In this document: piece by piece, positions 625 through 18,594 of the stretch
How the letters are laid out: every line of letters begins with the position of its first letter
Position numbering within the stretch: the first letter of the stretch is position 1
Source: Scilla litardierei
Lineage: Eukaryota; Streptophyta; Magnoliopsida; Asparagales; Asparagaceae
Length of the DNA stretch: 64,000 bases
Assembly: GCA_030789695.1 (NCBI GenBank)
Contig: CM061142.1
Span: 160,210,391-160,274,390, forward strand
Reading direction: 5' to 3'
The notes under the pieces: generated by a model
Seen by the model: the letters and a program-made list of their open reading frames with translations, nothing else
Databases searched by the model: none
What the model was told of the DNA's origin: nothing
Translations under genes and position numbers: made by a program

Positions 625-2224
625 ATGGATTATACTATGTGGACCACAGATTTTGATCAGAGTGCTCAGATGGGAGATTACTATTTTGATCAGAGTACTC
701 AGATGGGAGAATACTATTATGATCAGAGTGCTCAGACAGGAGAATACTATTTTGATCAGAGTGCTCAGATGGGAGAATACCTTTTTAAGGAGATGCACTG
801 GCCCGAGCTTGATGAGAGACAAAGGATCGTTTTTGATGAGATGCATGCACACCAGGTTGAAATGCAAGCCGGGCTTGAAAAGAGTAACCTTCTATTGGAA
901 CGGGTGAAGAGGCAACTTGAAATGAATGCGCTCATGTTTAAGGTTGCAATGATTCCCAAAGATATCAGTTCTGTTCCTTCATCTTATGGGCAAGAAGCAT
1001 CTCCAGTCATATTACCAAAGCCAGAATGTGCCGCCGTCGATCCCACATCCTTCAATACATCTGTTGCATATGAAGAGTGGATGGACGAAGGAACAGTGGA
1101 GGAAGCAGAAATTGAGCCACCAGCGCAGCCAGAGGAGGATGGATTTCAGAGATTATTGGAGGGTCTCTTGGAGTCAGTGAGGTTCACCAGTTCAGAGAGC
1201 ATTACAGCAGGTGATGCATTTGAGCTACGATTTGCAGATTTTGTTATGAACCGTGTTTCAGCTGCAGGAACAATTGAGGAGGACATCCATGTCAGTCTTG
1301 AGGGGGGATAGACTATATTTTCGGATTGCTTGCGGGCATTCCCCTCCACATGATACATCCCCATAAGCTGACACACCTGAGCAGCCAGCATCACCATCCC
1401 AGAGAGAGCCTACATTGATAGTTGATGAGAAGGCAAAGGAGCACACTATCGAGCCAGAGCATATTGCCGAGGAGGCCTCACATACGGAGCCAGAGCATGC
1501 TTTTGAGGAGGCCTTACACACAGAGCCAGAGCTTATCACCGAGGAGGTCGTGCATCGGGACGAGGACACAGCCATTCATGAGGATCCCGAGCACTATTCT
1601 CCTCCATTAGAGCTCCCGCAGCCACCTCATCCTTCCACTGACGTCGAGGACTATCCCACAGAGCTTACTGCTCCCACTCAGGGAGATATTTTTACCCACT
1701 CCATTTCTGAATCATGCATTCCATCCGATATTTATTTTGATTCAGATATTTTTGACACGTCATACCTTTTGCAGCACACATACGATTATGGACCGGAGGT
1801 ATGCTTGGACGTGTCACAGTTTGAGGAGCCTATCGAGGAGGTTCACACCTATGATCTAGATTTACCTGAGTAGCATAGAGAAGACACCATGGAGGCAGCT
1901 ATCACGGCAAGTGAGGATATTGGATTATTTCCAGGGAAGTATCATCAACCATCATTTATTCCATATATTTTTATAGACGATCCTCTTTGGGATACTTTTA
2001 TTACGAGGGTGAATTTTTTGCAGCGAACTGATGCATCCTATTCTCTGCAGGGTACAGGTGGAGTCCTTGTGGGAATGCTGGAGGATGCATTGCTGGAGTT
2101 CGTTGGAGTCCGTAGACACACGCGTCTGGCGGAGCCACGGAAGGAGCAGTTGGAGCAGTTGCCTGCACCGACAAAGATACTGGATCCGCCTTTTGCTATA
2201 GGTGATATCAATCCAGTAGTGTAG
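625..2224 (+). pseudogene. Broken acidic ORF of E1, function unknown
   Basis: Three consecutive open stretches (625-1311, 1415-1873, 1889-2224) look like one former reading frame of about 530 codons. The first is in frame 1 and ends just after a run of six G at 1302-1307, a likely site of the frame change. The second and third share frame 2 and are separated only by a TAG at 1871-1873. The N-terminus has four copies of an 11-residue unit (FDQSAQMGEYY-like), then a charged, helix-prone part. The middle is very acidic, with loose repeats around TEPEH and EEA. The end has no motif I know. It lies where gag would lie, about 190 bp after the primer-binding site. I see no zinc knuckle and no catalytic motif. 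A Gag-like or element-specific accessory protein is possible, but I do not recognise a family. Confidence 0.5.
649..782 (+). repeat. 33-bp tandem repeat, 4 copies, in the E1 ORF
   Basis: Four in-frame units of 33 bp begin with TTTGATCAGAGTGCTCAG or close variants and encode FDQSAQMGEYY-like 11-mers. Differences are few and mostly keep the frame. Confidence 0.85.
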
Positions 2225-6222: not shown

Positions 6223-7017
6223 CTGTCCCCACGAGATCTGTCCGCAGCCTTCCCGCGACGCTAGCTTGTTGTTTTGCCATTGGACTGATCATGCTCGCTG
6301 CCCACACTTCGTCCGCTGCCCGGACGTGTCTCACTACGCTACCCGTAGTCGAGACGACGTAGACACCGTGAATCACCTGCAGTTCAGACGTTACGTCCGC
6401 ACTACTCCAGACACTGGAGATGTTGGTTCCCCTATACTCGTAGAAACCCTAACTTTACGCCATCAAAACCTAACTAAAATCGGCAACTTAACATATTAAA
6501 TCTACTTTCTGCTTCCTTAAAACGATGTAGAACTGTAGATCGACTATCGGACTTTTTGACTGTCCACATAGGATAGAATCGTCGGATAGGTTGAACGGAC
6601 ACTTTGACTTGTGACTGTTAGGGTAGCCACGTCCAACCTAGAAACGAACCTAAATAGGATTTATTGAAAATCGTGACCTGACACCGTCGCCGTGACACTG
6701 TTTTAGACGGACTACCGCGGACGCGACGACTGGACGAGACGCCCCGGACGGACGACACACTCGCCACCGCAGGCAAGTGTATCCACTTGCTCTTTTGGCC
6801 GTGCTTAGGCCTTAGTTTGTTAGAACTGTTAACTGTGAACAAAGAGAACCGGACATGAAATGATAGCGTCCGGGACGTCCCTCGACGGCTCAGACTTGAC
6901 GACGAAGTCTGAGCCTAACAACAACTTTTGACATCGTAGGACTATCTTGTGTGTGCATGCGTGTGGACACCCTAGAATAACCTTTCCTGTCTTGTCACGT
7001 CCCGTCCCGTCTTGCAT

Positions 7018-7160
7018 AGCCCAGAGGGCAATAGGGCACTCTCCGAGTGATCCCTCGTCGTGATACTCAGCCCAGAGGGCAATAGGGCACTCTCCGAGTG
7101 ATCCCTTGTCGTGATACACAGCCCAGAGGGCAATAGGGCACTTGCCAAGCTAGAGCGAGT
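7018..7160 (+). repeat. Tandem repeat of about 58 bp, 2.5 copies
   Basis: Units starting AGCCCAGAGGGCAATAGGGC follow one another from about 7018, 7070 and 7120. The first two are nearly identical and the third diverges after 25 bases. Confidence 0.85.
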
Positions 7161-7543
7161 TATCCCTTGTCTTGTCTTGCCTTGTCATGTCTTGAATACT
7201 TGGGGTTGGGGTAGGGTTGAGCGTGCACACGGGAAGAGGGTCTGCTCCCCCTCAAACCATAAGGCGTGAACCCTTTCGTGTCACACTTGTCTTGTCTTGT
7301 CCCACCATGTTCCGATTTTTCTTGACACCTGTTAGGTTAGTCCTGTTGTTGGTAGCACATGCTACGATAACTACTTGTCACGTTTTACTTTCCTGCTGCA
7401 TTTACTTTCTTTTGTTCCTCTGTTATAACCTCGGCATGCTAATCAACCATTAAACCATTGTTAAATAGTCGGTACACTTGCAGTAGAGTCTGACCCCTTC
7501 GTAGACTTTACCTGACGTACAGTTCCTTTCTTTTGGGTGTTGT

Positions 7544-7639
7544 ATGTCAGGTGTGGAGCCAGAGTACGTTGAAGAGGCGGAGGACGTAGAGCCGGAGGAC
7601 GCAGACTCAGAGTACGTGCCCGAGGAGGACCAGAGCTAG
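7544..7639 (+). CDS. Acidic micro-ORF in LTR S, 31 codons
   Basis: ATG at 7544 opens 31 codons ending in TAG at 7637-7639. The peptide starts MSGVEPEYVEEAEDVEPE and ends with EYVPEEDQS. It is extremely rich in Glu and Asp, with no Lys or Arg. It ends 340 bp before the LTR end. A similar 35-codon ORF stands 343 bp before the end of the G LTR, with the same landmarks: EPEY near the start, EPE in the middle, EYV then DQS at the stop. The surrounding DNA is less alike, which suggests selection on the peptide. A pyrimidine-rich tract and an AG lie just at the start, so this could instead be an exon of a spliced transcript. Confidence 0.45.
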   Translation: MSGVEPEYVEEAEDVEPEDADSEYVPEEDQS

Positions 7640-7979
7640 AGATCTTCACGTTGCTGATTTAGAGGTTTTACTGTAGTTTAGTTGGGTGCGTAGCACCGTT
7701 TACTTTCTGCCTAGGTTGGGTTCTTGCACCATTAGTTTACTTCCAGCTATTTTAGCCGTGTTGGCTTTTGTTTAGACTCCCCGTACTTTTCTGGATAACT
7801 GTTGAAATAAATGAATGCATCTCTTTTAGTACTTTTGTTGTACCGTACTAACCTGCAGGGACCTGTTCCTTCGTCTTGGAGTACCACGCAGACACTTATT
7901 AGGTCAGAGCTTCACAGCTCCGGCCTAAGCGGGCCTTGTCACGTTTCCCTTCCGTCGTTTTGGGAAGCGGGGTGTGACA

Positions 7980-8010
7980 GTCCCTCAAAACCTAACATTG
8001 GTATCAGAGC
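7980..8010 (+). promoter_or_regulatory. End of the X 5' LTR and its tRNA-iMet primer-binding site
   Basis: TGGTATCAGAGC at 7999-8010 is the standard plant primer-binding site for initiator tRNA-Met. It follows CTCAAAACCTAACA, the copia LTR terminus, with one base between. Confidence 0.75.
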
Positions 8011-8945
8011 TTTATGTCTACTTTTGATCTAAGGACTGCAATATTTTAACTGCAAGTATGCTTTTTAAATACATATAATATATGTTTTTAACTTTATGTG
8101 ATAATTGTTAAAAATGGAACAAACAAGGTAATAGATGCTTTGAAAAATTATTTTATGTGATAAAATTCTTTTTAGTAGCATGCTAATTTTAATGAGATGA
8201 TTTTAAAAAAAATGTTCTTGAATTAAAATTATGCGATAATTTTTAACATGAAAAAATTAATTTTATTAGATAAAATTTTTATGTTTTAAAATTATGCTTT
8301 AAATTTATGTGATAAAATTTTAAAGTTGCATGTTATGTTTGTTAGAAACATAAAATAATTATGAGATAATTATTGAATATTATCGAAACTAAATTTCATG
8401 TGATATGATTAAGTTGTTAATTTTAATGGCTATGTTTATTCTTGATCCTTATTTTATGACACAAGGAAACCTTTTATGGAAACTAACTTCTCAATACATG
8501 AGATGTAGTCTAGCTTGACACAAACTGTCGTGCCATGAATACACCGAGCGCCGGTGTAAGTTAAGCTAGACACGAAAACAAGGGTCCGACTAGACTAGTC
8601 ATTGTGATTTGGATGAGCACACTCATGATCATAAGTGGCTAGGGGTAAAAACCAATAAGAGAATTATATATGATATGATTAATGAAGAGTCATCAACCAA
8701 TCGCAGAGTCAAGCAATTTATTGAGCACACTCAAGGTTGTGAGGCTCATGGTGGTTGGATCTCTTTGCCATTAATTTAATTTAATTAAATCGTTCATTAT
8801 TGTGGCATAGTTAGATAAAATCCATTCTATCTATATTTTAAATGTAACATATGCTAAACTAAGATAGTTCTATGTTTACCGATGGAATCAAAAACATAAT
8901 ATTATAAGAGAATAAGTTAACTGGTCCAAATAGTTGGTTAATGGA
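8011..8945 (+). other. Leader of copia X, non-coding
   Basis: AT-rich sequence without a credible ORF. The motif GAGCACACTCAAGGTTGTGA or variants occurs near 8614 and 8721 and again after G near 18797 and 18935, which joins the two sides of the insertion into one leader/gag region. The gag gene itself is not recognisable. Confidence 0.55.
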
Positions 8946-9220
8946 TGTAACGACTGCTTTTCATGTATCTGGATTTATTATAATATAATATATGTTTTGG
9001 TGGATTTTCTCCTCATGTGTGATTTCCGTCTCCGTAGCTTTCATTTTCGATCGTTTCGTCGTGTTTTCTCGTTTCTCCTTAGGATCGTCGATTTCGAAGT
9101 ATTTCATTCGTGACGGACTTCATAACGGTCGTATCTTACTATTAGATCAAGCCTAGGAGTCTTAGGAATCGATCCCGGGGCCCCGCGCTCCGTATCGGAA
9201 CTTTTGGTGCTTATTAGCCG

Positions 9221-9640
9221 GTGTAAGAAGGGGCACCGACCGACTAGATGACGATCCAGTCGGTCGGCAATCCTTCTTGGACCGACTAGTTGGCTTTCTA
9301 AATTATTCAGGAGTTACTGTTTATCGTTTGTCGGTCTAAGAACGTTGGTTGACCGACTAGGTTGCAAACTAGTCGGTCAGCAATGCTTCTTTAACCGACT
9401 AACTCTTCAACTAAATTTTAGTGTCTATACTATTCACTCTTAGTCGGTCTAAGAACGTTCATCGACCGACTAGATGTTAAACTAGTCGGTCAGTATTTGT
9501 TCATGGACCGACTAATTCTAAATCCTATTTTAGTTCAGAAGTTACTGTTTACACTTAGTCGGTCTGCGTTGGTCGACCGACCGACTAGTTGCCAAACTAG
9601 TCAGTCAGTGGTTGCTCTTTGACCGACTAATCTGTGTTAA
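9221..9640 (+). repeat. Array of ACCGACTAG / CTAGTCGGT inverted motifs in the G 5' LTR
   Basis: About four units of 100-115 bp follow each other, each carrying TTAGTCGGTCTAAGAACG, then GACCGACTAG, a short loop, CTAGTCGGTCAG and finally GACCGACTAA. Neighbouring motifs can pair into hairpins. The array lies just upstream of the TATA-like box. Confidence 0.85.
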
Positions 9641-10900
9641 AACCCTAATTTCTGGGCAGCCGCCAGCCCAACCTATTTAAACCCCTCCCAAACGTTTTCT
9701 TCTTCCTCCACTCGACCCAAAACCCTAGTTTCTCCCCCTTTGAGCCCCCTTCTTCCCCAAACCCTTATTCCTTCATTCCAAGCCCTAAATCCATCATCCA
9801 AACCATCCATCAACTCATTCTACCTCTCATCTTCCCCAAAATCTCATCAAATCCCCAAAATCCCCCAAAAACCCTAGTTCTCCAAACTTCTCCATTCGTT
9901 TCCAGATCTGGTCCCTAGGTTCCCCGGAGTGTTTCTTCCGCCTCCTCTCGGTAAGAAATCGATCTCTTGATGTTTTCATAACCTTTTTGTATTTTTATGA
10001 AACCCTAATGAATGAATGTTGTTTTGATGATTTTTTCCCCATAACAGCGATTTCCCCGTAGATTAGCATCCGCGAGACGAACCTTCGTGATCGTCATCCC
10101 CGGTGCTAGTCAAGTGAAACTTGCCACTTAGGGTTTAGGCCATGTTTTAGGCCATTTTGCTAGTTGTAGGCGTAAAAGAGGCTAGGCGACGAAATGATAC
10201 TCGCCTAGGCACAAATTGGGGAACTAGCTTGACAACGAAGCTAGTTCCGACTTTTAGCATGTTGCACAATTACCATGTCATGTTTACTTTCCATTAACGG
10301 TACGCAAATTAATTGTCATGTCATTGCATCCTTTAAGTATTTCCGTGAATGCGTAGCTTCGCTACAATACTTGTATTCCTGGCTCGTGACCAGAAGCGAG
10401 CATAATGAGTTGCTAACCCCAACGCTCGATATTGAATTATGAACTAAGAAACAAGCTCACGTGCGGGGCAACCCTGGCTCACTTGCTGGGCTCATGTACA
10501 GGGACCCTGGCTTGTTTACGTGTGGGATGTGGTAAGGGTTAAGCGGCCATTCAACTGGGAGTCTGCCCGATCAGCAACTGCAGTTGTAAGGCGTAAACTC
10601 TGGGGGGTAGTGTTTAGTGCCGATCGGTGTGAATGATGTACCATTCAGCTGAAGGGCGTAAACATCTACAAAACAACGTGAAATGATTGAGATTGTTAGT
10701 AGCTTGGCTACTCTAGTCTTGTCCCGATAATTGTCCCCTTGTACAAATTGTCTTGCCATGTTTTAAATTGTGCACTCATGTTATAACTGCCATGTCATGC
10801 ATACTAGAACTGCTAGGTTGCTAGTTGCCTTACTTTCAGTTTTCTTGCTCAAGTCTTTTAGACTTGCTGACATGTGCCCCTTTACTCTTTTGGGTGACAC

Positions 10901-11008
10901 ATGTTAGATCCTGAGCCTGAGTACCTTGTTGAGGACGAGGTGTTTGCTGACGCCGAGCCCGAGCTTGTGTTTGACGGGGAGTACGTGGACACTGGGGACC
11001 AGTCCTAG
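10901..11008 (+). CDS. Acidic micro-ORF in the G 5' LTR, 35 codons
   Basis: ATG at 10901 opens 35 codons to TAG at 11006-11008. The peptide begins MLDPEPEYLVEDEVF and ends with EYVDTGDQS, and it has no basic residue. The spacing to the LTR end (343 bp) and the residue pattern match the micro-ORF of S. It is preceded by a pyrimidine-rich tract and TGTTAG, so an internal exon is an alternative reading. I do not recognise the peptide. Confidence 0.45.
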   Translation: MLDPEPEYLVEDEVFADAEPELVFDGEYVDTGDQS

Positions 11009-11494
11009 TGTCTTCGTTGTGTTTTACTTTTGTTTAGACAGTTGTTTGTTATCGGTGCGTAGCACCTATACTTTGTTATGTCGTTGCTTTTGTTGGCCTT
11101 GTTCTGGGCCTTTAGACTCTTTCTTTTAGCCTGGTGGCTTTTCTGGATGTTGGACTTATTTTCATGTTGGACAATTTATGAGATGTGAGATTTGATTTCA
11201 GTCTCTCCTTGTGTTATTATTGTTGTTCCGTTGTGGTTACAGGGACCTGCTTATTTTCTATTGACGCTTATCGGGTTTGGGGCTTCACAGCTCCACTCTT
11301 GTGCGGACCTTTTCACGTCTCGCCTCCATTTTAGGGAAGCGGGTCGTGACAGGTTTTGTTGGTGGCCCATGCAGGTCCTTCTGTAACTGCGATTTTTGGA
11401 ATGACGATAATAATATTAGAATGTCCAATAAACTAAGTTCGACGTCCGAGTCATAAGCTATGAGTCTAATCTGATTCGTTCTCTGTGTCACTAG

Positions 11495-12626
11495 ATGGCA
11501 GGAAGACGATTCACCCGTGGTGGGGGTAGTGGTGCGCTCCCTCATGATGAGGAGCCTGAGCGGGAACCCACCAACGGTGAGATGATGCGGATGATGCTGC
11601 AGATGATGCAAGTGCAGCAGGGCGTGCTCCTGCAAGTCCAGAATGCTCCACTTGCTCGAGCTGCCCGGGCTCTTCCGGATGCCCCTCGCTCTGAGCCAGG
11701 AGCGAAGCAATTTCGGGAGCTGGGTCCCGCATATTTTGATGGGTCTGAGGGTCCTCTGGCTGCCGATGAGTGGATTCGGAACATCGAGGACAATCTGAAG
11801 ATGGCCAAGATCACCCCAGCTGGGTGGGTCGATTTGGCGAAGAGGCAACTCAAGGATATTGCTCGGAATTGGTGGTATGCGGAAGAGAAGATGTTGGTGG
11901 AGCCGATAGCTTGGGCTACCTTCAAGGCCAGATTTGAGGGTGAGTTCTTCCCGAAAGCTGCCAGGGAAGAGATGCTGCAGCGTTTTATCGATTTGAAGCA
12001 AGGGAGCTCGTCGGTGGACCTATATCACCAAGAGTTCATGAGGCTGAGTCGGTTCGCACCGAAGATGGTGCAGGACGCTGAGGAGAGAGCGCAGAGGTTC
12101 CTACAGGGACTTGCTTCAGAGCTCCAGAGTTTTGTGACCTCTTCTGACCGGGAGTCTTATCAGAAGGTTCTAGTAGCAGCCAAGAGGCAGGAGCTGCTCG
12201 TGAACCAGAGGAGGGGGTCTGTTGTTGGTGCTGGGAAGAGGCATGTGGAATAGGCGAGAGCTGTGGTTAGACCTGGATTCAGGCCGAACCAGCCTGCTCA
12301 GTTTAAGAGGCCAGGAGGGCCTATTCTGAAGACTTGCCATTTCTGCGGTAAGCCTGGCCACATCAAGGATCAGTGTCGGAAGTTTTTGGGCCAGTGTCTG
12401 GTTTGTGGTGATGCTTCCCATGTCGCAAAGGATTGTCGGCATGCGGGTCCGCTGCGGAGGGCACATGTTGCAGCTCAGCCGTTGCAGCAGCGAGCGTCTG
12501 TCCCTGCTGGTCGTGGAGCAGCTCTTGTTCCGCAGAGGCAGGCTTTTCAGCAGGCTGTTCCGCCGAGGAGGCAGGCTTTTCTGATGACCGCTGTGGAGAG
12601 CGAGGCTGTGGATGAGGTTATCGCAG
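11495..12626 (+). pseudogene. gag: gag of G: capsid and nucleocapsid with two zinc knuckles
   Basis: The frame opens at ATG 11495, 143 bp after the LTR. Residues about 75-240 carry the retrotransposon Gag fold signature (ADEWIRNIE, RNWWYAEE, FFPKAAREEM, LYHQEFMRLSRFAP). A TAG at 12251-12253 interrupts the frame, which then continues through two CCHC knuckles: CHFCGKPGHIKDQC (12335-12376) and CLVCGDASHVAKDC (12395-12436). The stop fits a CAG to TAG change. The knuckles bind nucleic acid and package the element RNA. The frame reaches DEVIAG at 12626, where the intron-like segment begins. Without splicing it would end at 12667. Confidence 0.9.
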
Positions 12627-12739
12627 GTAATCCTCACTCTAGCTGTCACTTTCCTAGCTGGTTTTGATTGTTAGATTATGTTGTTTGCTTGAACATGGTT
12701 GTTTGCTAGACTAGGGTTTGATTGTTAATTGCTTGTTAG
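12627..12739 (+). other. Intron-like segment 1 between gag and protease (113 bp)
   Basis: GTAATCCTC follows GCAG, and the segment ends TTGCTTGTTAG. It is T-rich and 113 bp long, so it shifts the frame. If it is removed, the codon GGT forms across the join and the reading frame passes from EVIAG into [16 protein letters not shown], which is what related gypsy polyproteins show at this point. Frame restoration together with GT-AG ends makes a true spliceosomal intron plausible. Confidence 0.6.
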
Positions 12740-15700
12740 GTGTGGTTTTGGTTTGCACATTTCCTGCACGAGTCCTCTTTGACTCTGGTGCATCGATGTG
12801 CATTATTTCTCGGAGCTTCGTGGAGAGGCATTCCTTGTCGACGTCCCCTCTTCCCAAGAGTTGGAACATCGCCACAGGGAACAGTGTCGTCTCGGTGCAT
12901 CGTGGGTGCAATTCTTGCCCGTTGGTGGTTTGTGGACGTGAGCTTTGTGCTGATTTCATTGTCCACGACATCATCAACTATGATGCAGTTCTTGGGATGG
13001 ACTGGCTTGCGAGCTTCTATGCTACGATTGACTACAGGAGGAAGAAGGTGGTGTTCGAAATTCCCGGACATCCAGTATTTGAGTTCAGTCGTGGTAGCAG
13101 TTCGCTTGGTCCTGTCAGATTTCGGGCCAGGCCGGTGGAGGTTGTGGCTATGCAGATGGAGCTGGAGTGGCCAGCTGTGGTGCGTGATTTCGGCGACGTC
13201 TTCCCCGAGGAGATGTCTGGTTTGCCACCTGATCGAGCTCTAGAATTTTCTATCGATCTTGTTCCAGGTGCGCAGCCGATTTCGAAGGCGCCGTATCGTA
13301 TGGCACCTGCAGAATTGGAAGAGTTGTGGAAGCAGCTGGATGAGCTTTTGCAGAAGGGTTATATTAATCCTAGCGTGTCTCCGTGGGGAGTACCGGTGTT
13401 GCTGGTGAAGAAGAAGGACGGTTCGCGTCGCATGTGCGTGGACTATCGGGAGTTGAATGCGGTGACCATCAAGAATAAATACCCGTTGCCTCGCATCGAT
13501 GATATTTTTGATCAGCTTGGAGGTTCGAGGGTGTTTTCTAAATTGGATTTGAGGAGTGGTTACCATCAGTTGAAGGTGAAGAAGGATGATTTTCCGAAGA
13601 CAACGTTCAGGACGAAGTATGGACACTATGAGTTTGTGGTTATGCCTTTCGACGTAACTAACGCGCCCGCAGTTTTCATGAATCTGATGAACCTGATTTT
13701 CTACGACTTTTTGGATAAGTTTGTCGTTATCTTCATTGACGACATTCTGATCTATTCGAAGTCGGAGGAAGAGCATGCCTCGCACTTAAGGACGGTGTTG
13801 GAAATTTTGAGGAAGCATCGTTTGTATGCTAAGTTTTCGAAGTGCGAGTTCTGGCTGGATAGAGTTGCTTTTCTCGGGCATGTGGTGACTGGAGATGGTA
13901 TTTCAGTTGATCCCGAGAAGATTAGGGCCATCAGAGAGTGGCATGTTCCGTCGTCTGCGTCTGAGATTCGGAGTTTTCTTGGACTTGCTGGTTATTATCG
14001 GCGATTCATTAAGGACTTTTCTCGTATTGCTGAGCCGATGACCAGGTTGACGCGGAAGGATGTTGCTTTTGTTTGGTCGGGTGATTGTGAGAGTGCTTTT
14101 GGTATTCTGAAGGAGAGGTTGACGACGGCCCCTATTCTTGTTGTGCCTGATCGCAGCGGTGGATTTGAGATCTTTTGCGATGCTTCTGGCAAGGGTCTCG
14201 GTTGTGTGTTGTATCAGCACGGGTATGTTGTGGCGTATGCGTCTCGTCAGCTTAAGGTTCATGAGAAGAAATACCCGACGCATGATTTGGAGTTGGCTGC
14301 CGTTGTGTTTGCTCTTAAGATTTGGAGGCACTTCCTGCTGAGTGAGAGGGTGAAGATTTTCACCGATCACAAAAGCTTGAAGTATATTTTCACTCAGAAG
14401 GAGCTCAACATGCGACAGCGTCGATGGTTGGAGCTTATGGCGGATTATGAGATTGATTTGCAGTTTCACCCTGGCAAGGTGAATGGGGTTCCGGATGCTT
14501 TGAGTAGGCTTCCAGTGGTGATGATTTTGACCTCACAGTGGAGATTGCAGCAGGATTTTTGCGAGTCTGGCGTGGAGATTGTTCTTCCTGGGGAGGCTTC
14601 GTCGTTGATTTACATGCAGGTACATTCGACGATCGTGGATCAGATTAAGGCTGGCCAGGCTGAGGATCCGAAGCTGGTGAAGATTCGGGAGCAGGTGGAA
14701 GCCGGTCTGCGGACTGACTTTTTGATTCATGAGGATGGCTCGCTGAGGTTTGGAGCCAGGTTGTGTGTGCCGACTGGGGATATTAGAGAGGAGTTGATGG
14801 TGGAGGCACACAGTTCGCCGTATTCTGTGCATCCTGGTGGCACCAAGATGTACCAGGATCTTCGTCTGAATTATTGGTGGCATGGTATGAAGAGGAGTGT
14901 GGCTCGGAGTGTAGCCAAGTGCTTGGTTTGCCAGCAAGTGAAGGCGGAGCATCAGCGTACGGCCGGGTTGCTACAACCGCTTCCGATTCCGGAGTGGAAG
15001 TGGCAACACATCACTATGGATTTCGTGACTGGACTACCTCGGAGTCCGAAGCAGAATGACGCGATTTGGGTGATCGTAGATCGATTGACCAAATCCGCGC
15101 ACTTTATTCCGTTCCGAGTGGGACAGTCTACTGAGGCGCTAGCAAGGAGATATATGGAGGTAAAATTCTTTTACTCTCCGTTTTTATTTCATTTTCCTAG
15201 TTTGGATGGTGATGTAACGTGAATCGTGCAGGAGGTTGTGCGACTTCATGGAGTCCCCGTGAGTATCGTGTCGGACAGAGACACGAGGTTTACATCTCAG
15301 TTCTGGCAGAGTTTGCAGAAGAGCTTGGGTACGCGTCTGAGTTTCAGCACGGCGTACCATCCGCAGACGGATGGTCAGTCCGAGAGGACGATTCAGTTTT
15401 TGGAAGAAATGCTGAGGGCGTGCATGTTGGATTTCAAGGGTTCGTGGGAGGACCATCTGCATTTGGTGGAGTTTTCCTACAACAACAGCTTCCAGGCGAG
15501 TATTGGCATGGCGCCTTTCGCCGCTCTTTATGGGAGGAAATGTCGATCGCCATTGAGTTGGGATGACGTTGGTGATCGGGAGTTGTTGGGACCTGAGATG
15601 ATCGTAGAGGCCGTGGAGATCGTCAGGAATATTCGGGAGAGGTTGAGGATTGCTCAGGACCGTTTTAAGCATTGGGCGGATGCTAAACGTCGTCCTTTGG

Positions 15701-16134
15701 AGTTTCAACCGGGCGACCATGTGTTCTTGAAGATTTCCCCGAATCGCGGTGTGATTCTTTTCGGGAAGCGAGGGAAGTTGAGCCCGTGATACATTGGACC
15801 GTTTGACATTTTGGAGAGGGTTGGCGAGGTAGCTTATCGCTTGGCCTTGCCGCCATCTTTGGAAGGAGTTCACAATGTTTTCCATGTGTCGCAGCTTCGT
15901 CGATACATTAGCGATCCATCTCATGCTGTGGATTTTTCGGAGATTACCGTTCGCCCCGATATGACGTATGACAAGCATCCAGTGCAGATTCTGGACAGGC
16001 GTCAGAAATCGCTTCGGAACAAGATTGTCAATCTTGTGAGGGTGATGTGGCGACACGGCTCACCTGGAGAGTCTACTTGGGAGAATGAGGATGAGATGCG
16101 AGAGCGTTTCCCACTTTTGTTTCCGGACACGTGA
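12740..16134 (+). pseudogene. pol: pol of G: protease, RT, RNase H, integrase, chromodomain
   Basis: One frame carries all pol domains. Aspartic protease has VLFDSGAS with catalytic Asp at 12781. Reverse transcriptase has [31 protein letters not shown] and the active site FIDD at 13732-13743. RNase H follows ([27 protein letters not shown]). Integrase shows the HHCC zinc finger (HPGGTKMY to CLVCQQVK), the first Asp in [10 protein letters not shown], the second in SDRDTRFTS and the Glu in TDGQSERT. The C-terminus (LDRRQKSLRNK to ESTWENEDEM) is a chromodomain-like module that in this family directs integration to chromatin. Breaks: a 72-bp intron-like insertion with an in-frame TGA (15160-15231) and a TGA at 15787-15789, probably from CGA. 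Otherwise it is intact. Confidence 0.92.
15160..15231 (+). other. Intron-like segment 2 in integrase (72 bp)
   Basis: GTAAAATTC follows ATGGAG and the segment ends ATCGTGCAG. It holds an in-frame TGA and encodes residues foreign to integrase ([12 protein letters not shown]). Removal joins RYME to EVVRLHGVP, matching the usual gypsy integrase text. It lies between the first and second catalytic Asp. Confidence 0.6.
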
Positions 16135-16165
16135 GTGTTTGGAAATTCCGAGGACGGAATTTTTC

Positions 16166-16180
16166 TTAAGTTGGGGAGGA
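16166..16180 (+). promoter_or_regulatory. Polypurine tract of G
   Basis: TTAAGTTGGGGAGGA directly precedes the 3' LTR start TGTAACGAC at 16181. Confidence 0.8.
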
Positions 16181-16455
16181 TGTAACGACTGCTTTTCATG
16201 TATCTGGATTTATTATAATATAATATATGTTTTGGTGGATTTTCTCCTCATGTGTAGTTTCCGTCTCCGTAGCTTTCATTTTCGATCGTTTCGTCGTGTT
16301 TTCTTGTTTCTCCTTAGGATCGTCGATTTCAAAGTATGTCATTCGTGACGGACTTCATAACGGTCGTATCTTACTATTAGATCAAGCCTAGGAGTCTTAG
16401 GAATCGATCCCGGGGCCCCGCGCTCCGTATCGGAACTTTTGGTGCTTATTAGCCG

Positions 16456-16865
16456 GTGTAAGAAGGGGCACCGACCGACTAGATGAAGATCCAGTCGGTC
16501 GGCAATCCTTCTTGGACCGACTAGTTGGCTTTCTAAATTATTCAGGAGTTACTGTTTATCGTTAGTCGGTCTAAGAACGTTGGTTGACCGACTAGGTTGC
16601 AAACTAGTCGGTCAGCATTGCTTCTTTAACCGACTAACTCTTCAACTAAATTTTAGTGTCTATACTATTCACTCTTAGTCGGTCTAAGAACGTTCATCGA
16701 CCGACTAGATGTTAAACTAGTCGGTCAGTATTTGTTCATGGACCGACTAATTCTAAATCCTATTTTCGTTCAGAAGTTACTGTTTACACTTAGTCGGTCT
16801 GCGTTGGTCGACCGACCGACTAGTTGCCAAACTAGTCGGTCAGTGGTTGCTCTTTGACCGACTAA
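16456..16865 (+). repeat. Palindrome array in the G 3' LTR
   Basis: Second copy of the ACCGACTAG / CTAGTCGGT array, with a few base differences from the 5' copy. All the main motifs are kept. Confidence 0.85.
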
Positions 16866-18138
16866 TCTGTGTTAAAACCCTAATTTCTGGGCAGCCGCCA
16901 GCCCAACCTATTTAAACCCCTCCCAAACGTTTTCTTCTTCCTCCACTCGACCCAAAACCCTAGTTTCTCCCCCTTTGAGCCCCCTTCTTCCCCAAACCCT
17001 TATTCCTTCATTCCAAGCCCTAAATCCATCATCCAAACCATCCATCAACTCATTCTACCTCTCATCTTCCCCAAAATCTCATCAAATCCCCAAAATCCCC
17101 CAAAAACCCTAGTTCTCCAAACTTCTCCATTCGTTTCCAGATCTGGTCCCTAGGTTCCCCGGAGTGTTTCTTCCGCCTCCTCTAAGTAAGAAATCGATCT
17201 CTTGATGTTTTCATAACCTATTTGTATTTTTATGAAACCCTAATGAATGAATGTTGTTTTGATGATTGTTTCCCCATAACAGCGATTTCCCCGTAGATTA
17301 GCATCCGTGAGACGAACCTTCGTGATCGTCATCCCCGGTGCTAGGCAAGTGAAACTTTCCACTTAGGGTTTAGGCCATGTTTTAGGCCATTTTGCTAGTT
17401 GTAGGCGTAAAAGAGGCTAGGCGACGAAATGATACTCGCCTAGGCGCAAATTGGGGAACTAGCTTGACAACGAAGCTAGTTCCGACTTTTAGCATGTTGC
17501 ACAATTACCATATCATGTTTACTTTCCATTAACGGTACGCAAATTAATTGTCATGTCATTGCATCCTTTAAGTGTTTCCGTGAATGGGTAGCTTCGCTAC
17601 AATACTTGTATTCCTGGCTCGTGACCAGAAGCGAGCATAATGAGTTGCTAACCCCAACGCTCGATATTGAATTGTGAACTAAGAAACAAGCTCCCGTGCG
17701 GGGCAACCTTGGCTCACTTGCTGGGCTCATGTACAGGGACCCTGGCTTGTTTACGTGTGGGATGGGGTAAGGGTTAAGCTGCCATTCAACTGGGAGTCTG
17801 CCCGATCAGCAACTGCAGTTGTAAGGCGTAAACTCTGGGGTGGGGTAGTGTTTAGTGCCGATCGGTGTGAATGATGTACCATTCAGCTGAAGGGCGTAAA
17901 CATCTACAAAACAACGTGAAATGATTGAGATTGTTAGTAGCTTGGCTACTCTAGTCTTGTCCCGATAATTGTCCCCTTGTACAAATTGTCTTGCCATGTT
18001 TTAAATTGTGCACTCATGTTATAACTGCCATGTCATGCATACTAGAACTGCTAGGTTGCTAGTTGCCTTACTTTCAGTTTCCTTGCCCAAGTCTTTTAGA
18101 CTTGCTGACATGTGCCCCTTTACTCTTTTGCGTGACAC

Positions 18139-18246
18139 ATGTTAGATCCTGAGCCTGAGTACCTTGTTGAGGACGAGGTGTTTGCTGACGCCGAGCCCGA
18201 GCTTGTGTTTGACGGGGAGTACGTGGACACTGGGGACCAGTCCTAG
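18139..18246 (+). CDS. Acidic micro-ORF in the G 3' LTR, 35 codons
   Basis: Same 35-codon frame as at 10901-11008 (MLDPEPEYLVEDEVF to DQS and TAG at 18244-18246), open and apparently unchanged. The 3' LTR position would put it downstream of pol in the genomic RNA. Confidence 0.45.
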   Translation: MLDPEPEYLVEDEVFADAEPELVFDGEYVDTGDQS

Positions 18247-18594
18247 TGTCTTCGTTGTGTTTTACTTTTGTTTAGACAGTTGTTTGTTATCGGTGCGTAG
18301 CACCTATACTTTGTTATGTCGTTGCTTTTGTTGGCCTTGTTCTGGGCCTTTAGACTCTTTCTTTTAGCCTGGTGGCTTTTCTGGATGTTGGACTTATTTT
18401 CATGTTGGACAATTTATGAGATGTGAGATTTGATTTCAGTCTCTTCTTGTGTTATTATTGTTGTTCCGTTGTGGTTACAGGGACTTGCTTATTTTCTATT
18501 GACGCTTATCGGGTTTGGGGCTTCACAGCTCCACTCTCGTGCGGACCTTTTCACGTCTCGCCTCCATTTTAGGGAAGCGGGTCGTGACAATGGA

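Follow-up and report, generated by a model that had tools for sequence, protein, structure and literature searches.

A candidate coding terminal exon in the long terminal repeats of a probably chromodomain-bearing Ty3 retrotransposon lineage of Scilla litardierei

Introduction

In our judgement, how plant Ty3 retrotransposons get more Gag than Pol from one transcript seems largely unsettled. This work concerns an acidic reading frame within the long terminal repeats (LTRs) of such elements in Scilla litardierei, seen in two LTR families, here called G and S, of a 64,000-nucleotide stretch of contig CM061142.1 (assembly GCA_030789695.1, positions 160,210,391 to 160,274,390). This stretch is the window to which all coordinates below refer, and all features lie on its forward (+) strand. 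The closest described systems make Gag-only RNAs by splicing. For Drosophila copia, a paper on BARE cites a splicing event that takes out 2.9 kb of pol (PMC3735527); as far as this citation goes, the resulting Gag RNA resembles what is proposed here, although copia is an insect element of the Ty1/copia superfamily. For BARE1 of barley and EVD/Ty1-copia of Arabidopsis (shGAG), alternative splicing from a donor at the 3' end of gag or close to it leads to a Gag-only product (PMC3735527, PMC8892269, PMC12786077). Unlike in the present proposal, according to the available excerpts of these papers, a frameshift ends the protein soon after the junction in BARE1 and EVADE, and premature cleavage and polyadenylation take place in EVD; the same excerpts mention no tail exon in the LTR of BARE1 or EVD. 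Sunflower elements, too, produce short GAG isoforms by splicing. The BARE paper names Ogre, CRR and Bagy2 as plant Ty3 elements with spliced transcripts (PMC3735527), again with no mention of an LTR tail exon in the available part of the text; the intron of Ogre lies at another place, and Bagy2 produces an env RNA.

Gag-only spliced RNAs are known from copia, BARE1 and EVD; what would be new here, conditional on RNA evidence, is a tail exon borne by the LTR. The reading that we favor, with a probability of about 0.5, is that the acidic frame is an alternative last exon, coding and placed within R of the LTR, that would give the capsid protein Gag of a probably chromodomain-bearing Ty3 element an acidic tail. 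Coding sequence within an LTR, reached through splicing, occurs in mouse mammary tumor virus (sag) and in foamy viruses (bet), where the coding part is in U3, whereas the exon of G would be in R. The original prediction, made from the letters of the window, knew of no description of such a frame, and we likewise recognised no coding exon in a plant LTR in searches of the open-licence PMC literature.

Results and discussion

An acidic frame shared by three LTR types

The frame of the S LTR (7544-7639) translates to MSGVEPEYVEEAEDVEPEDADSEYVPEEDQS and those of the two G LTRs (10901-11008 and 18139-18246) to MLDPEPEYLVEDEVFADAEPELVFDGEYVDTGDQS, each followed by a stop. Both lack Lys and Arg, and their stops stand 340 bp (S, LTR end at 7979) and 343 bp (G, LTR end at 11351) before the end of the LTR; the coordinates, the absence of basic residues and the two distances given in the original prediction are all borne out. 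Counted from the acceptor-like AG described below, the putative exon spans 7551-7639 in S and 10908-11008 in the 5' LTR of G, ending in both at the stop TAG, and corresponds by LTR register to 18146-18246 in the 3' LTR of G, where it is proposed as the terminal exon of a Gag-only mRNA. A three-block pattern, composed of LTR blocks downstream of the open reading frame (ORF), matched 966 places of the 3.68 Gb genome (control, 0), and the matches listed included several LTR types. The one locus fetched from these, L069, represents a third type with the same frame (27 amino acids, MLDCEPELVVEDEQVAGVEFEDIGDQS and a stop), 24 nt shorter than in G. After the acceptor, the tail would have 25 codons in L069, 29 in S and 33 in G, with DQS or near-DQS before the stop, and the C-terminal D-Q-S and stop are kept with a serine that is written AGC in S and TCC in the other two types.

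The openness of the frame is by itself unremarkable, as 728 of 3000 dinucleotide shuffles of S and 359 of 3000 of G stayed open; none of them, for either family, was open with at least 12 D/E and without K/R. The peptides of G and S are alike beyond composition, their alignment score being reached by 0 of 5000 shuffles. The G-L069 score was likewise reached by 0 of 5000, and that of S-L069 by 71 of 5000.

The ATG is probably not the defining start of the frame

To analyze the frame in other copies, the genome was searched with the LTR ends of G (2,194 candidates) and S (7,520 candidates); the best 40 hits of each were scored, and 30 loci of each family were fetched, one of each being the window copy itself; the family counts that follow take no account of shared ancestry among copies. 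The ATG start attributed to both frames in the original prediction holds for the window copies, but that of S is nearly private to its copy: among its 29 relatives the codon is ACG in 23, ACA in 2, AAG in 2 and ATG in 2, so that 27 of 29 lack the ATG, and most of these still have the frame. Genome-wide, anchors immediately flanking the ORF matched 14,533 places (control, 0). TYAG is kept in 14,254 of them, ATGTY in 13,687 and both in 13,550; 704 places have TYAG without the ATG and 137 have ATGTY without the AG, where position count alone would predict a ratio of about 3 to 2. The S lineage may supply many of the 704. TYAG is better kept than the ATG genome-wide, and the ATG is probably not the defining start of the acidic frame.

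The frame opens at a hairpin that resembles a 3' splice site, with a branch-point-like CTGAC, a pyrimidine tract in the loop and YAG. In G this hairpin (hairpin 0; 10867-10907) holds CTGAC in its 5' arm and ATGTTAG in its 3' arm, with the AG at 10906-10907, and in S the layout is the same (7510-7552; AG at 7549-7550). CTGAC and its partner GTYAG are common to both families, whose loop-side stems differ and still pair. Across copies, 288 of 290 cells are paired in G and 349 of 359 in S. The G copies retain CTGAC in 27 of 28 cases and the acceptor-like AG in 28 of 28, and the S copies in 28 of 29 and 25 of 29, respectively; the A of CTGAC lies 37 nt before the AG in G and 35 nt before it in S. 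As a TGA stands two codons 5' of the frame in 27 of 28 G copies, the frame could not be read from upstream in G unless by splicing.

These data bear on whether the frame is a free micropeptide or upstream ORF that begins at the ATG (ACG in S), in LTR transcripts or in the 5' leader, and works either through its peptide or by restraining the translation of gag, which we consider unlikely. The presence of the ATG in 28 of 28 G copies and the high count of ATGTY at anchored places favor such a peptide, and the upstream TGA, which bars unspliced read-in, suits it as well. Against it stand the S copies, which mostly keep the frame without an ATG, the 25 ATGs that would come first in unspliced RNA, after the presumed first exon, and the position of the ATG in the stem of hairpin 0, which could explain its retention; moreover, no homologue of the tail was found in the protein database, where no candidate shared three words with it, at a sensitivity that is low for so short a query. 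The original prediction had also considered that the AG at the start might join the frame to another exon. Splicing at a predicted acceptor there fits better than a free peptide because S loses the ATG while the frame stays, TYAG outlasts the ATG and the phase of the frame matches that of the gag donor; CTGAC and the pyrimidines agree with it.

The frame matches the phase of the gag donor

The donor at the end of gag was read in seven elements (the window copy of G, L061, L062, L063, L064, L065 and L068), in all of which it stands at the same codon of a conserved D-x-V-[IV]-[AT]-G end, one base past D-x-V-[IV]-[AT]. Counted from the gag ATG (an internal Met in L061), it lies one base into the codon in 5 of the 7. 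In G the gag exon (11495-12626) is followed by a gag-pro intron (12627-12739, GTAATC...TTGTTAG), and as the protease exon and the LTR exon both open in phase 1, a phase-1 gag donor suits both acceptors. Use of this donor is strongly indicated by intron-less copies: searched with a G-type pattern, the gag-pro junction without its intron is present at 34 genomic places, of which 7 match exactly, 14 differ at one position and 13 at two (control, 0), and the gag donor is therefore evidently spliced to protease in RNA that was copied back. Elements devoid of pol (L064 and L068) retain the gag donor, consistent with a tailed Gag.

Upstream of gag, a TATA-like TATTTAA (9674-9680) is followed by a stretch without any ATG up to 9970, presumed to be a 5' untranslated exon with its start site behind the box, and a candidate leader 5' splice site, CTCTCG/GTAAG, lies at 9951-9955. 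A total of 25 ATGs stand between this presumed first exon and the ORF in G, with none inside the exon, and in all 6 elements examined a 3' splice-site-like stretch (...TCACTAG in G) directly precedes the gag ATG. The ATG-free stretch, the GTAAG and the acceptor-like sequence before gag suggest a spliced leader. As the first exon is free of ATGs, 25 ATGs intervene and the gag ATG follows an acceptor-like stretch, gag is the only fitting upstream coding exon found for the acidic exon, to judge from the sequences compared.

Other upstream partners were considered and discarded. The end of pol does not serve, as the pol stop of G overlaps a GTGAGT in the wrong frame that is not kept in the S-type elements L063 and L065, and the donor of the second pol intron is in phase 0, also the wrong frame. 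A coding exon elsewhere in the LTR was sought by tblastx between G and L063 without a match, in a blunt test that missed the acidic exon too. The latter result also bears on the idea that the frame belongs as a tail to a different protein, to which it is linked through an unrecognised exon such as a host gene exon near the insertion or an unannotated LTR exon. The acceptor-like sites of both LTRs would be reachable from many upstream donors, which speaks for it; nevertheless we hold it to be very improbable, as the G LTR and the 5' LTR part of L063 share no coding stretch at E 1e-6 (with the bluntness just described), and as selection across families needs a partner carried by the element, for which only the phase-1 gag was found.

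Among proteins, gag has 4 matches, of which P0003 (435 amino acids, 50% identity) ends in VITGITRPSLYFR and seems, judged from the protein alone, to read on beyond the conserved donor position, and P0004 corresponds to the N-terminal part. A search for pol in viral contigs gave no match.

Coding signal within and between families

In the G family (29 copies besides the reference copy), the ORF shows 0.99% substitutions per site, compared with 3.3% and 6.5% in two upstream blocks of 100 bp and 1.4-3.0% downstream; it has no insertion or deletion, and one copy carries a stop. Its differences fall on codon positions 1, 2 and 3 in numbers of 7, 7 and 17. In S the frame is intact in 27 of 29 copies, with one stop and one frameshift due to a 1-nt deletion, the only other length change being +9 nt in two copies, and the differences at the three positions are 60, 55 and 92. 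A codon test, with expectations taken from the mutation spectrum of the flanks (28 G copies and 28 S copies, the frameshifted one being dropped), revealed a synonymous excess confined to frame 0, with 11 of 24 changes synonymous in G against an expected 25% (p = 0.02). Stops in S number 1 against 3.6 expected from the flank spectrum, and among changes common to at least 2 S copies (L055 omitted) the synonymous share is 16 of 36 in frame 0, compared with 7 of 34 and 8 of 34 in the remaining two.

A pattern made of the start end and the stop end of the frame, with a free gap of 62-92, matched 21,060 places genome-wide (control, 0). Of 60 anchored places on the first 17 Mb of C1, 44 match the exon-end pattern and 16 do not. 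The length of the exon pattern in these 44 is 117 in 41, 93 in 2 and 116 in 1, and the spacer behind the stop has five lengths in the same LTRs, which are mostly close kin, so that their lengths are not independent. Taken over the three LTR types, the retention of the frame, length changes that come nearly always in threes and the excess at third positions in both families support a translated stretch. Within families, coding constraint is supported but not strongly; most within-family changes are probably decay after insertion.

Part of this evidence would also be expected if the stretch were a structured RNA with a purine-rich splicing enhancer, serving leader splicing or packaging, in which the frame is a by-product because GA-rich sequence reads as E and D. 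We judge this improbable, to about the same degree as the free micropeptide. Hairpin 0 and a further LTR hairpin (hairpin 1, below) are well kept and pair in both families with different stems, the low divergence in G continues beyond the stop, and the codon bias within families is weak, with an S ORF no less variable than its flanks, all of which suits an RNA element. On the other hand, such an element would not account for a third-position excess in both families with a synonymous excess in this frame only, for length changes in threes, for a D-Q-S and stop written with different serine codons or for a likeness of the G peptide to those of S and L069 that exceeds composition. A search of Rfam gave 5 weak matches, none of them close to its gathering score.

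A translated stretch, as in the selected peptide of the original prediction, for which a synonymous test on many copies had been suggested, is supported by the kept frame and the third-position excess. Several observations weigh against the tailed Gag. The synonymous excess in S is slight (19 of 55 in frame 0, expected 27%, p = 0.13), which together with the p = 0.02 of G makes a weak test, and stops in G are as frequent as expected (1 seen, 0.9 expected). The G ORF is calmer than its surroundings, but the S ORF is not: it differs by 7.4%, with 6.9-14.2% upstream and 4.2-8.0% downstream, and has 0.632 variants per site against 0.517 in the flanks. At 94% of anchored places the ATG is retained, for which an acceptor alone gives no reason, although the stem of the hairpin would. 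L064 has GG in place of the acceptor AG; since this is so in both of its LTRs, the acceptor was probably lost before insertion. A shift of the gag frame ahead of the donor in L065 and L068 brings it to the donor in phase 0, so that the acidic frame would not be read in these copies. Finally, no junction of gag with the acidic exon was found genome-wide with up to 2 mismatches (control, 0), nor any of the first exon with the acidic exon with a G-type pattern and up to 3 mismatches (control, 0). Both absences are weak counter-evidence, because an RNA joining gag to the LTR exon should not transpose, being without polypurine tract and U3, which applies less clearly to the first-exon junction. DNA copies of spliced BARE1 RNA were likewise not amplifiable from barley genomic DNA, according to the available part of that report (PMC3735527).

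A possible route to a tailed Gag

In the arrangement that we favor, full transcripts would serve as genomic RNA, and splicing of gag to protease would give Gag-Pol. The exon of the 3' LTR would take the gag donor otherwise joined to protease, at a predicted acceptor, and such splicing would drop pol and yield Gag with an acidic C-terminal tail of 25-33 residues, followed in the LTR by a 3' untranslated region and poly(A) at predicted sites, from a transcription start that is also predicted. Of the three fates of the transcript, the splicing to protease is the one with direct support. What is seen directly is the frame with its conservation across families, the hairpin, and where the gag donor stands and in which phase; the protein and the role of its tail are put forward conditionally. 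The Gag-only mRNA would provide Gag in excess of Pol, and the tail may distinguish this Gag from the Gag-Pol form or affect RNA export or packaging. For the role in export, the available text on Cer1 of C. elegans, an animal element, describes a spliced mRNA for an extra nuclear protein needed to export unspliced RNA (PMC12786077), and we use it solely as an example of a possible role.

A more general and somewhat more doubtful version would extend this to a dominant plant Ty3 lineage. As the LTR is present at both ends of the element, its exon would be silent when it stands in the 5' leader and would code when it stands in the 3' LTR, and the hairpin would be a regulated 3' splice site that switches between Gag-Pol, genomic RNA and tailed Gag. 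The tail would then label a separate form of Gag destined for assembly, for RNA export or for avoiding packaging.

In the lineage concerned, with more than 14,000 anchored LTR places in this one genome, the intron between gag and protease is evidently spliced, and the putative LTR exon shares its phase. The junction of gag with the LTR exon is concrete and can be searched for in any plant long-read transcriptome. For annotation, it follows as a warning that LTRs can hold coding exons and splice sites, which neighboring genes could take up.

Other features of the G and S elements

The 5' LTR of G (8946-11351, TGTAACGAC...GTCGTGACA) and its 3' LTR (16181-18589) are flanked by a 5-bp target duplication, ATGGA, at 8941-8945 and 18590-18594. 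In the window copy gag is interrupted by an in-frame TAG (12251-12253). Protease, reverse transcriptase, RNase H and the start of integrase, assigned by Pfam, occupy 12740-15159, followed by a second, putative pol intron (15160-15231; phase 0, as the reading frame suggests) and by the remainder of integrase with a chromodomain-like end (15232-16134), which has one internal stop in this copy; the pol stop TGA (16132-16134) lies 46 bp 5' of the 3' LTR. The Pfam matches (gag, protease, reverse transcriptase, RNase H, integrase) are in Ty3 order, and the Chromo match at the end of integrase reaches 24.0 bits, slightly below the Pfam cut-off of 25.1. From its general resemblance G may belong to the Tekay clade. 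Upstream of the TATA-like box its LTRs contain GACCGACTAG motifs in tandemly repeated units of about 113 bp (9214-9630 and 16449-16865).

Hairpin 1 has in G (10220-10248) an 11-bp stem and the loop GACAACG, with 319 of 319 cells paired, and in S (6887-6915) a covarying stem and the loop GACGACG, with 296 of 330 paired. The loop, GACRACG, is near-constant, and the stem shows covariation among S copies and also between the two families; this hairpin is a candidate packaging or dimerisation signal. Hairpin 2 (GGTGCGTAGCACC; 11054-11066, in S 7685-7697) lies downstream of the stop, and its folding is not clearly beyond that of shuffles (z of -0.9 in G and -1.9 in S).

Among S-type elements, L063 and L065 have pol and a gag without its capsid part, with the same deletion boundaries, whereas L064 and L068 lack pol and have a gag region of full length, which carries stops in these copies. 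The two pairs have in common the LTR type, the primer-binding region, the ends of gag and the acidic exon, and look like a two-component partnership. In the non-coding stretch just behind the gag donor (about 3843-4442 of L064), L064 and L068 differ by 0-4% per 100 bp, compared with 3-21% in gag. In the window S element and in L067, TGGTATCAGAGC starts 20 and 68 bases past the LTR end (7980-8010 and, in L067, 4016-4094), and L063, L064, L065 and L068 carry a TTTTAGTGGTGGCCC stretch instead. Because the interiors of the window S element and L067 differ from those of L063-L065 and L068, a single type of LTR may go with three or more kinds of interior. The S LTR also contains AGCCCAGAGGGCAATAGGGCACT three times, at 7018, 7069 and 7120, with a spacing of 51 bp. 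Another nested element of the window (625-1311) has an open frame with a repeated YYFDQSAQMGE-like unit.

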